This document shows, piece after piece, positions 25,552 to 29,629 of a stretch of DNA of 64,000 nt. The first letter of the stretch is position 1, and every line of letters begins with the position of its first letter. Origin of the DNA: Anthracocystis setariae. Its lineage: Eukaryota > Basidiomycota > Ustilaginomycetes > Ustilaginales > Ustilaginaceae. Under the pieces are notes generated by a model that saw only the letters and a program-made list of their open reading frames with translations, was not told the origin of the DNA and did no database searches. The stretch is from the NCBI GenBank assembly GCA_928724745.1, contig CAKMXJ010000018.1:248001-312000 (forward strand). Direction: 5' to 3'. Position numbers and translations under genes: made by a program.

Positions 25552-26463
25552 TCAATGTCGAGAACGTGGGCCGGTAAGCTCGTTGGTGTAGAAGCAGATA
25601 CACTGCCTATCGAGCCAGGTCCGCAATTCGTCCTTGCGTTTTTTCGTGTCCATACTGAGTGCATTCTGGGTGGCAATGCTGACGAACTCATCGAACGAGA
25701 TGGGTTCATACCGCAAGATACGTGCCCAGAGAGGAGCATCGGAGCGAACAGCGGCAGTCATAGTCTGCGCTAGCACGGGCGAAGGATCAACTGCGTCCTC
25801 GCCCACGTCAGCTTCAATGTCAGCCTGTCCCGCTGCTAGCGGAATGTCTGAAGAAGAAGAAGAAGAAGATAGGGCAGGGGAGTTGGATTTGGACCGTGAC
25901 CGTGACCGTGATTGTCGCAGGGAGCGTTTGCTGGGGGTAGAGACTTCGCCGTCGGTAGCCGAGAGTGCTTCGGCTTCGATCTGTGCGGTAAAGTCTCCAG
26001 CTTCTGCTTCTGCAAATATGACCGAACCTGAAGAAGTTAGGGAGGAAGAGTCGGAGCTGGCGTCCAAAACGTACGGATCGCTCTTCCTACCTCTTCCTTT
26101 CCCCTTGGCCTTTCGCTTTGATATTGGTGGGCTCCCGCCTTCTGCCTCCCATTCTGGAATGTCGAGGGTTAATGCCGGAGTACTAGCCACTTCTGCTTCG
26201 GCAGGCGCATCTGGCGGATCGTACACCGCTTTCGACTTGTTTAAAGCTTCGTAGACTGCTTTCAGCTGATCGATAAGCGTAGCTCGCTTGCGAGAGACTT
26301 TGAATCCATACCGCTTTACTTCGGCTTGCAGTTGGGCCGTCGTCCATTCCTCAAAGTAGGGTAAATGCGCAGTGGAGGTCGTGGATGGGCCGGCTACGGA
26401 ATCGGTGCAGTACGACCTTCTCGCCAGGTTTGCACCAGTCAGCCCTCTAGATGAACGCGCCAT
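25552..26463 (-). CDS. slx4: SLX4-like structure-specific endonuclease scaffold, short form
   Basis: About 303 residues from ATG 26463 (MARSSRGLTG). An in-frame ATG at 26571 would add 36 residues; I prefer 26463 because it has G at +4 and the extra residues look like translated leader. Two parts match fungal SLX4: a SAP-like helix-turn-helix near residues 33-66 (YFEEWTTAQLQAEVKRYGFK) and the C-terminal SLX1-binding domain at about 245-293 (ILRYEPISFDEFVSIATQNAL, RKDELRTWLDRQCICF). SLX4 activates the SLX1 nuclease on branched DNA. Between them is an acidic Ser-rich linker with an SRSRSRSKS run. Missing relative to larger SLX4s are the upstream zinc-finger, BTB and MUS81-type regions. Family assignment rests on the two short motifs. 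Confidence 0.6.
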   Translation of the reverse strand: MARSSRGLTGANLARRSYCTDSVAGPSTTSTAHLPYFEEWTTAQLQAEVKRYGFKVSRKRATLIDQLKAVYEALNKSKAVYDPPDAPAEAEVASTPALTLDIPEWEAEGGSPPISKRKAKGKGRGRKSDPYVLDASSDSSSLTSSGSVIFAEAEAGDFTAQIEAEALSATDGEVSTPSKRSLRQSRSRSRSKSNSPALSSSSSSSDIPLAAGQADIEADVGEDAVDPSPVLAQTMTAAVRSDAPLWARILRYEPISFDEFVSIATQNALSMDTKKRKDELRTWLDRQCICFYTNELTGPRSRH

Positions 26464-26892
26464 AGTGACCGAAGGATTCAAGAAGAGGAAAAGTGGATCT
26501 ATCCGAGCGATCTTTGGCTGCTGGCGAAGAGCCAGGTCGCAGCGGTAGATGAGGGGACCTGCTCTGATCATGCAGCCTGGTTCGAACCAACTCCTGCTCT
26601 CTTGCGGATTTCATGTATACAAAAGTTGCAGATCCAGCTGCATCTTCCGCTTGTCCCAACTCTAGGCCACAGTGACACAGTGAGTAGGTGAGGTGTGTGA
26701 GGCGAGGTGAGGTGAGGTGATGAGTTCCAGAAGGATGCAACAGGCATGGAATCTCGTCCTCCACTCGTCCAACTTCGGCGTCGAGAAAGGGCCGAATCCC
26801 GATGTCGTCAAGGTTGTAAGGGTCCAACGACACCTTGCATCTTGTCCTCCTTCTCCTCGCCACCATTGACAACTGTCTGTCTGTATCGAAGC
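26464..26892. promoter_or_regulatory. Shared divergent promoter, slx4 / Oca-like
   Basis: 429 bases between the chosen start codons (174 if both alternative upstream ATGs, 26571 and 26746, are used). It contains four GAGGT(G/GA) repeats near 26693-26719. No RNA gene; a palindromic TTCGAA at 26581 is not part of a tRNA. Confidence 0.4.
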
Positions 26893-27796: not shown

Positions 27797-29629
27797 TCAG
27801 AAAGGCAGGGCCAGTGGGAGGTTGGCGAACGGCAATTGAGCGCCACTGCTAACTTGCTCACCACTCCAAGACATGAATGCGTCTTCTTCGCTGTTGCCCA
27901 ACAGTCTGGAAGCACTCATTTGCTTCAACTCATGCTTCTGCCTCTCCTCCTCATCGAGTATCTCCTCGATCGTCCCCTTAACCCTGCTTACCCACTTGAC
28001 GTACTCCTCCACCGCCTCCTTAGCGCCTCCACTCACCAACTCATCGTAATACTCCCACGTATCATCCTCCGGCCCGAAACCTTTCCACCTTACCAAACAC
28101 TTACTCTGCGTCGGCGTGATCGCGACGATGTGCGACACCTCGTACACCTCGTTGCTCCGATCGATTGGTGGCGGCCGTTCGTAACTGTCCGGCGGTCGTG
28201 GGATGAGCCATTTGGCTGGGAGTTCGCCTGTGACGCTGGTTCCTGTGGGGATGAACGTCTTCACCTTGTCTGTGCTGCTCGACGATGTCTTGGAACCGTT
28301 GGAACGAATGCGATCGAAATCCAACCCGTCGACTCCATCCTGATCATCTTCCTGCTTTACCCTCGGCACGATCGATACCGCCCGCGGCGTACTCACAGCT
28401 CCACCACGTCCTCGCCTCCCCCTTTTGCTTGGTCGACCTGCCGGCTTAGCCGGACTCGATAGCCGCTCTTTCGCACGACGATACTTGAACACTTCACATA
28501 GCGTGTGTTCAATGTCGACCACGTTGAGACCCGGCTTGCGAGCAGGACAGAGATGTGGGATGTCGGTGATGCCAAATCTGGCCCAGTACTGTTCCTGATT
28601 CGCCTGAATCCACCGCATCGCTTCTAGTTCGAAGCCCGAGACGTACTTGCCAAAGATGTCCACCAAACAAGCCTTGGACCCAGGTCCGCACGCTGCAAAC
28701 TCCTCCTCGCTAAAGTTGAAGTGTTCCGACAGGTTGAGATCAAGCAACAGTCTATCATGCAGATCAGAAGCAAAAGAAGATGGTCAGTGGATCCAACAAG
28801 ATCAGCTGAGCTGAAACCCATGTCGTGGGGGGCCAAGATATACTCACTGCATGGCCAAGAACGGCCCCAGACTGGGGAAAGTCGCCAAGAGCGAGTGTGC
28901 GTCGCGCATATGGTGTAGCCCCGCCAGCTTTTTCGGCAGCTCGGTGCGCATCATCAGCTGAACAAGTCTCAGTGTACTTTGGAACGGGTATTGAGTCCTA
29001 AACTCCCTCGGCGCTGGGATGAAGTAGGAGCTGCCATACACTGGGTTCCCTGCTGCAATGTGTGGCATGAGTACATTCTCATAGGCCGCAGGCGAGAAGG
29101 TCGTGAAAGACGGCGGACCACCCAGCGCTTCCCGAATGACTTCGTAGGTGCTTATACGCGCGAACGACCGGAATAGGAAAACACGGAAGCAGACTTCTTC
29201 CAGCTCTTGCGGGCCGTCTTGGACGACGCGGGTGAGCACATACTGAGTGGAGCGGTCGAGGACGCGGTAGACATTGGCAAACTTGGTGGAGGCGAGGATG
29301 GGGTCGGTGGTCCATTCCGATTGCGGAAGACCGGCTTTGCGAGCGAGGAAGACAGCATGACGATCGTGCGCGTAGTGGAAGAAGGTTCGGAAGACGTCTT
29401 CGTTGAGAGGGAGGTTGAGGTTGGGAAGGATGGTGACTTCACCTGGTCGGGCTTCCGAGTTGGAGGGTAAGGGTGTGGGTGAGCTAGACTCGTTAGTCGA
29501 TTCGTGGTCGAGCCGAGGCCGGGTTGCGTCGTTACCGTTGGGAAGCAAGGAAGAGGTGGCATTGAGTGAGGCTGAGTCTTGGTCGCGGTCGCGCTTGGTG
29601 CCACCAGCGGCCATCGTAGCGACGGACAT
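27797..29629 (-). CDS. Chromodomain/AT-hook protein with a 5-hmdU DNA kinase-type helical domain
   Basis: A 578-residue protein from exons 29629-28848 and 28751-27797; the 96-base intron has GTGAGT and GATAG ends, phase 2, and joins GPFLAM to QLLLDLNLSE. Residues ~78-355 match the all-helical domain that Pfam, as I recall, names HMUDK_hel, after phage 5-hydroxymethyl-dU DNA kinases of thymidine hypermodification: W106-TTDPIL, KFANVYR (116-122), LDRSTQY, LPSLGPFLAM-like FPSLGPFLAMQ, and A-C-GPGSKACL (281-290) before IFG. Next is an AT-hook, KPAGRPSKRGRRGRGG (363-378), then a chromodomain (463-515) keeping the methyl-lysine cage Y464, W483, F486. No Walker A or other kinase motif is visible. 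Probably nuclear and chromatin-bound; reaction unknown. It is convergent with the Oca-like gene and divergent from the GGQ fusion gene. Confidence 0.8.

Follow-up and report, generated by a model that had tools for sequence, protein, structure and literature searches.

An HMUDK_hel domain paired with a chromodomain in Anthracocystis setariae and other basidiomycetes: a candidate chromatin-tethered base reader

The DNA stretch analyzed here (64,000 nucleotides of Anthracocystis setariae, contig CAKMXJ010000018.1, positions 248,001 to 312,000; hereafter the window) contains a two-exon gene whose 578-residue product joins HMUDK_hel, a domain known from phage hypermodification and from defence-like bacterial operons, to a histone-mark reader, in an arrangement that is conserved in basidiomycetes. 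We tentatively favour, as a possibility short of a probability, that the product is a chromatin-tethered base reader, in which an HMUDK_hel domain of bacterial-type origin would work with a chromodomain and without a kinase partner. If the domain does read a base, the protein would directly and physically connect histone methylation with an unusual base in fungal DNA. This reading further predicts a preferred base for the domain, which is testable by binding assays and nucleoside mass spectrometry.

Gene structure and domain assignment

The features of the gene are as follows.
27797-29629, minus strand: two-exon gene, 578-aa spliced product
28848-29629, minus strand: exon 1 (782 nt), with the N-terminal stretch and HMUDK_hel residues 78-260
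28752-28847, minus strand: intron (96 nt, GT-AG) splitting codon 261, its junction shared, by implication, by relatives
27797-28751, minus strand: exon 2 (955 nt), with the HMUDK_hel end, basic linker, chromodomain, C-terminal tail and stop
28850..29398, minus strand: HMUDK_hel profile positions 2-182 (residues 78-260), Pfam E 3.2e-60, 204.3 bits
28985..28987, minus strand: codon of P215, at the column that is lysine in bacteria and most phages; no Lys in 73/73 fungal rows
28469..28750, minus strand: HMUDK_hel profile positions 184-275 (GPG 283-285, D340, C346, E347, K350, Y351, R353), Pfam E 3.4e-29, 102.5 bits
28400..28453, minus strand: basic linker PAKPAGRPSKRGRRGRGG, claimed as an AT-hook; AGRP core, not RGRP
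27995..28141, minus strand: chromodomain profile match (Pfam), with W483 and F486 inside and Y464 one codon past the upper edge

The HMUDK_hel family (PF18723; profile length 281) was matched well above its 25-bit cut-off in both pieces that were submitted separately to the Pfam scan, namely 28849-29629 and 27797-28783, the latter a stop-to-stop frame that takes in 32 intron nucleotides; the domain assignment made in a first-pass annotation of the window is thus significant on the profile check. Since the exon-1 piece covers profile positions 2-182 and the exon-2 frame covers positions 184-275, leaving a single position uncovered at the junction, the profile itself supports the splice. The two-exon model that the same annotation had proposed also holds in translation, which runs in frame across the splice through 578 residues to a stop, and the intron has the ends GTGAGT...ATAG with, by eye, a CTGAC branch-like site. 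Moreover, the alignment of full-length relatives is unbroken through the junction, and five shorter relatives (P0013-P0017, 322-365 aa) have dissimilar starts just before a common RLLLDLNL point, the pattern expected of exon-2 frames left unspliced. Residues ~1-70, upstream of the domain, are probably disordered, judging from the low confidence of this region in an ortholog's model.

The motifs that had first drawn attention to the domain (WTTDPIL, KFANVYR, LDRSTQY, GPFLAMQ, and GPGSKAC) are all present in the translation. Besides HMUDK_hel and Chromo, no Pfam family was matched up to E 1 in the two scanned pieces, including (i) any P-loop kinase family, in agreement with the earlier remark that no P-loop kinase motif is present, and (ii) any helix-hairpin-helix DNA glycosylase family; ADDT (PF18724) was likewise without a Pfam match. 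For the smut ortholog P0003, neither NCBIfam nor PADLOC returned a match, and a whole-genome search (21.5 Mb) for HMUDK_hel returned just the two exons of this gene.

The chromodomain (PF00385) scored 26.4 bits, barely above its cut-off of 25.1, and two mushroom relatives score below it (P0026, 20.5 bits; P0043, 23.4 bits). Its cage, described at first as intact, was found so, with Tyr464, Trp483, and Phe486 in place; among the fungal rows, the Tyr464 column is aromatic in 79/79, the Trp483 column is Trp in 79/79, and the Phe486 column is aromatic in 77/79. A retrotransposon chromodomain was ruled out, since the gene has two exons and sits between ordinary genes. The genome as a whole yields 101 chromodomain matches. 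Many of these lie in open frames 1,260-1,730 aa long, a pattern suggesting that the genome holds many chromodomain-bearing gypsy-type retroelements. The AT-hook is the weakest part of the first-pass annotation: an AT-hook is defined by an RGRP core, and the linker has AGRP in the window. The core is not conserved; RGRP occurs in 3 of 13 smut-side relatives.

Fungal distribution and tree placement

A search with the spliced protein returned 26 relatives, of which, by precomputed annotation, 20 carry PF18723 together with PF00385 and 5 carry PF18723 alone, and one (P0025) combines Thymidylate_kin with PF18723. The named relatives belong to Ustilaginomycotina (Sporisorium, Ustilago, Pseudozyma, Kalmanozyma, Thecaphora, and Violaceomyces) and to Agaricomycetes (Ganoderma, Pilatotrama, Daedaleopsis, Trametes, Obba, Amanita, and Mycena); taken together, these relatives place the window in a smut of the Ustilaginaceae. 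A profile search gave 579 matches, the best 120 of which add many mushrooms with the same pairing, as well as bacterial or unnamed proteins in which the domain either stands alone or is joined to Thymidylate_kin or to MazG and MazG_C. The HMUDK_hel-chromodomain pairing is, therefore, a recurring basidiomycete architecture of smuts, polypores, and mushrooms. Both the domain and the pairing are already visible in public Pfam and UniProt annotation; among the open-licence matches listed, no paper has a title or abstract on a basidiomycete HMUDK_hel-chromodomain protein. In a 2013 abstract, Iyer et al. reportedly named basidiomycetes among the eukaryotes with predicted base-modification systems.

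The Sporisorium scitamineum ortholog (P0001) is named 'related to SET2-Histone methyltransferase', a name that is probably a misannotation; its sole precomputed Pfam domain is HMUDK_hel. Loss of the gene alongside RNA interference and DNA methylation in Ustilago maydis was considered and proved uninformative: neither the 26 matches nor the 31 matches of a control (the neighbouring phosphatase) include it by name, so its absence says nothing. Identity with the chromodomain genes CHP1 and CHP2 of U. bromivora was ruled out, as these are given as UBRO_05116 and UBRO_07750 in the text on those genes (PMC5106213), and the ortholog is UBRO_14373.

Two trees bear on the origin of the fungal domain: a quick tree of 90 rows, without two dropped fungal rows, and a careful tree of 42 of the 90. 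Fungi form one clade in both, with 12 sequences in the careful tree (bootstrap/Shimodaira-Hasegawa-like approximate likelihood ratio test, 100/99) and 24 in the quick tree (99). In the careful tree, fungi and bacteria fall on one side (88/73), the bacteria alone have support of 80/86, and the phage copies stand apart; it is this joint grouping that favours, with moderate tree support, a bacterial-type source of the fungal domain, and the order of fungi, bacteria, and two phage branches is unsettled in the quick tree. The initial description of a phage-type domain therefore stands as regards the HMUDK_hel family, but not as regards the nearest kin, which in the trees are (with moderate support) bacterial chromosomal proteins rather than phage hypermodification genes; some of these bacterial proteins adjoin MazG_C, Thoeris TIR, thymidylate synthase, or kinase genes. 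Within the fungi, the polypore copies group with the smut copies and not with the Agaricales-type rows (99 in the quick tree; 100/99 in the careful one). This grouping contradicts the species tree and could stem either from an ancient duplication followed by loss or from transfer among fungi.

Conserved residues, gene neighbourhoods, and proposed function

We compared residues in 114 bacterial, 62 phage, 12 fused, and 73 fungal rows (14 smut-side, 5 polypore, and 54 Agaricales-type), with 16 rows excluded for length or a missing anchor. Columns that are invariant or nearly so across all groups are Arg90, Asp109, Phe117, Asn119, Arg122, Asp125, Phe257, Gly283, Pro284, Gly285, Asp340, Cys346, Glu347, Lys350, Tyr351, and Arg353; the largest exceptions are Asp109 in 7/62 phages and Pro284 in 10/54 Agaricales-type rows, and the Arg90 column is gapped in 8/54 Agaricales-type rows. 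The window agrees at 22 of 30 listed near-invariant phage and bacterial columns, among them Leu248 and Ala259, and differs at eight, including Glu105, Ala118, Ala157, Ser201, Pro215, and Cys289. Pro215 marks the charged column among these eight. It corresponds to Lys176 of the Jiangella protein, where Lys is found in 114/114 bacteria, 12/12 fused proteins, and 47/62 phages (Arg in a further 10/62); the fungi have Pro (14/14 smut-side), Asn or Ala (5/5 polypores), or Asn, Ala, Thr, Glu, Leu, or Ser (54/54 Agaricales-type). A Lys or Arg lies at most four residues from this column in 51/73 fungal rows, so that replacement of the lysine by a neighbour is possible. The combination of kept polar residues and a changed lysine fits a domain that retained recognition while altering or losing a catalytic or phosphate contact, which we infer the lysine to have been. 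The suggestion in the first-pass annotation that the protein may bind rather than modify is thus plausible, and the lysine's absence from all 73 fungal rows compared points the same way.

The same table bears on a scaffold role, in which the helical domain would have lost all base contact and would serve instead as an interaction platform for proteins of a heterochromatin complex. The altered lysine column agrees with such a role, as does Asp265, which is retained in smut-side and polypore rows and altered in 54/54 Agaricales-type rows. Against it, Arg90, Asp109, Asn119, Arg122, Asp125, Asp340, Cys346, Glu347, Lys350, Tyr351, and Arg353 show few changes in the smut, polypore, and mushroom rows compared, which would be more than a scaffold needs, and we regard the scaffold as very unlikely.

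The predicted fold appears to resemble that of helix-hairpin-helix DNA glycosylases. Its best solved matches are the phage 5-phosphomethyl-deoxyuridine (5-PmdU) glycinyltransferase and, second, the queuine-salvage enzyme DUF2419, and comparison with phage enzymes, as the first-pass annotation had advised, gave matches to the family members F8WQ30 (SP10) and C9DG43 (PhiW-14). A search for a link by sequence from the phage profile to a solved structure gave one match at E 0.33, which we took as chance. These likenesses could speak for an active chromatin-tethered enzyme that catalyzes a base step (transfer, removal, or excision on a 5-hydroxymethyl- or phosphomethyl-pyrimidine) and draws on a separate kinase or oxidase acting in trans. 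In favour of it, the solved structures nearest in fold are those of enzymes, many of the near-invariant polar residues of phages and bacteria recur in fungi, Asp265 is retained in smuts, and the phage HMUDK_hel profile aligns with the glycinyltransferase profile at two helices, that of the hairpin and the cysteine-bearing one near the C terminus (pairwise P 1.8e-4, probability 48 percent). However, the alignment with ADDT is weak for the bacterial and fungal profiles (hhalign, probabilities of 8.9 and 3.8 percent), the lysine column is altered throughout the fungi, and the protein matches no P-loop family and no ADDT. Further, the genome gave no match to Tet_JBP or ADDT, a result to be read with the controls, which were silent too, and with the scope of the search, in which kinase and hydroxymethylase were not sought. 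Overall, an enzyme appears somewhat unlikely. The same genome result qualifies the first-pass proposal of an uncharacterized chromatin-linked base pathway: these searches found no partner from thymidine hypermodification, without proving that none exists.

In phages, a profile scan gave 73 IMG/VR loci, of which 59 have open frames of 267-345 aa, the size of a stand-alone domain; a tblastn search with P0025, the first part of which is a kinase, gave 572 phage records, the best 30 of which all match its HMUDK_hel part. In PaMx11, the HMUDK_hel gene (gp50) lies between a P-loop protein (above the AAA_33 and Zeta_toxin cut-offs, below that of HMUDK_HMUD1) and thymidylate synthase, with an ADDT gene in the same cassette. 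In Brevibacterium phage LuckyBarnes (L086, 2828-6843), its neighbours are two TAGT glycosyltransferase genes and a gene annotated as thymidylate synthase; the fetched stretch has no gene annotated as a kinase, and HMUDK_hel may therefore serve sugar transfer besides phosphorylation. The thymidine-modification cassette described for the M6-like phage SN1 has aGPT-Pplase1 adjoining a nucleotide kinase (PMC9476957, in its account of that cassette). From the gene order and the annotation of phage Montesquieu, aGPT-Pplase1 would be an HMUDK_hel protein. Among 102 phage neighbour open reading frames (ORFs) at 58 loci, thinned by hand from 128 computed ORFs, thymidylate synthase occurs 13 times, Nmad5 6 times, HMUDK_HMUD1 4 times, and ADDT once.

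A genome scan confirmed 543 bacterial relatives, of which 80 were kept, the better-scoring ones being mostly from Actinomycetes. Among 121 hand-picked neighbour ORFs from 50 of the 80 loci, with operon-like loci sampled more heavily, we counted MazG_C (17), MazG (7), Thymidylate_kin (6), Peptidase_M78 (6), Thymidylat_synt (5), ThsB_TIR (5), and Nmad2 (3); PADLOC tallies for these neighbours are 5 for ThsB models and 6 for capP. At three loci (L160, L161, and L162), HMUDK_hel lies beside or near MazG_C genes in every case; L162 also has a Thoeris ThsB-TIR gene and a type I specificity subunit, and L160 an M78 peptidase gene, a context that is likely a nucleotide-type defence operon. In its lists of anti-phage defence domains, a 2026 report (PMC13092281) places a 5-hydroxymethyluracil kinase and a thymidylate synthase among those newly validated, and aGPT-Pplase, MazG, and MazG-C among those predicted.

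These neighbourhoods raise the alternative that the domain acts on small molecules, as a binder of free nucleotides or nucleotide messengers, with the chromodomain merely localizing the protein; the bacterial kin encoded next to MazG_C and TIR genes may act in this manner. The fusions of HMUDK_hel to MazG and MazG_C (P0109 and P0130) and the MazG_C and ThsB_TIR neighbours are in keeping with this, and DUF2419 was solved, by its structure title, with queuosine-5'-monophosphate. Opposed to it, both the tally of phage neighbours and the three phage loci with annotation indicate DNA-level modification cassettes, and the glycosylases among the fold matches, by structure title, act on DNA; a chromatin tether would also be hard to explain for a small-molecule enzyme. 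We consider this alternative unlikely.

For the base reader that we prefer, the following course may be proposed. The first half of the protein would be a helix-hairpin-helix, DNA-glycosylase-like HMUDK_hel domain, which in phages and bacteria would recognize a C5-modified pyrimidine (5-hydroxymethyl-deoxyuridine or similar) while working beside a kinase. A basidiomycete ancestor would have acquired it once from a bacterial-type source; the fungal protein would then have had no kinase partner, lost the lysine of bacteria and most phages, and gained the chromodomain. The latter would dock on methylated histone H3, probably in heterochromatin marked by methylation of H3 lysine 9 (H3K9me), and the helical domain could then inspect or hold a base in the H3-methylated chromatin, most likely so that repeats or foreign DNA are marked or kept in check. 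Of this course, computation supports the two domains and their splice, the conservation, the single fungal clade, the predicted fold, the conserved residues, the lost lysine, the intact cage, and the phage and bacterial gene neighbours, while base recognition, the direction of transfer, the loss of catalysis, H3K9me as the ligand, and a part in genome defence are inferences. A bolder version, which we hold to be quite unlikely, is that basidiomycetes turned a bacterial anti-phage or phage base-modification module into a chromatin-guided base system, directed by a histone mark, that recognizes and perhaps helps to write a putative C5-modified thymine or cytosine of heterochromatin; such a system would be the fungal analogue of base J or of the marking of self and non-self in restriction-type systems. 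The likeness in fold to the glycinyltransferase and DUF2419, the bacterial neighbourhoods, and the lysine change all provide leads that go beyond the family name.

Genomic setting and comparison with known systems

A Pfam scan of six neighbouring frames identified a tyrosine phosphatase, an RF-1-domain protein, a class-V aminotransferase, an Slx4-domain protein, and a glycosyl hydrolase, with one frame unmatched; the phosphatase, RF-1, aminotransferase, and Slx4 genes are ordinary. The Slx4-domain protein (25552-26547, minus strand) is an ordinary repair factor. Elsewhere in the genome, matches to Pre-SET (1), DNA methyltransferase (at three places), Piwi (1), and RdRP (3) make it likely that components of H3K9-type silencing, DNA methylation, and RNA interference are present.

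Among known systems, the phage HMUDK_hel proteins, namely the SP10 5-hydroxymethyl-deoxyuridine DNA kinase and the stand-alone PaMx11 gp50, provide a profile that spans nearly the whole fungal domain, and the near-invariant residues of the 62 phage rows are common to the fungal protein; phage rows are 21-28 percent identical to P0003. The fungal protein differs from them in that it has no kinase in cis, has an added chromodomain, and has a changed lysine column. The bacterial chromosomal proteins (stand-alone, Thymidylate_kin-fused, or MazG_C-fused) form the clade nearest to the fungi in the careful tree (88/73). Identity to the Jiangella protein is 36-42 percent for 17 mushroom or polypore rows and 20-34 percent for 16 phage rows, and the mushroom tail is, by eye, similar to the bacterial tail. 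The bacterial proteins scanned differ from the fungal ones in having no chromodomain and in keeping the lysine, and some of their genes, unlike the fungal gene, are clustered in an operon-like manner with genes for MazG_C, TIR, thymidylate synthase, or Nmad2.

The 5-PmdU glycinyltransferase gp46/PUGT (ADDT; PDB 8z2n) differs in several respects: the Lys of its GFK motif aligns with a Gln in HMUDK_hel, it is encoded in PaMx11 by a separate gene in the same cassette, and its family has no match in the fungal protein. The likeness to DUF2419 (Q_salvage, PF10343) is one of fold, without a Pfam match in the protein; a single weak match to Q_salvage lies at a separate place in the genome, and a phmmer search with its frame at E 0.001 returned nothing from the PDB. 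At the other end of the protein, the chromodomain shares its cage aromatics with those of HP1, CDYL, and MPP8, and the best PDB sequence matches of its fungal profile are to CDYL (3.6e-13), followed by MPP8 and HP1 entries. What sets it apart from these three is its partner, since the fungal chromodomain is joined to a base-type domain.
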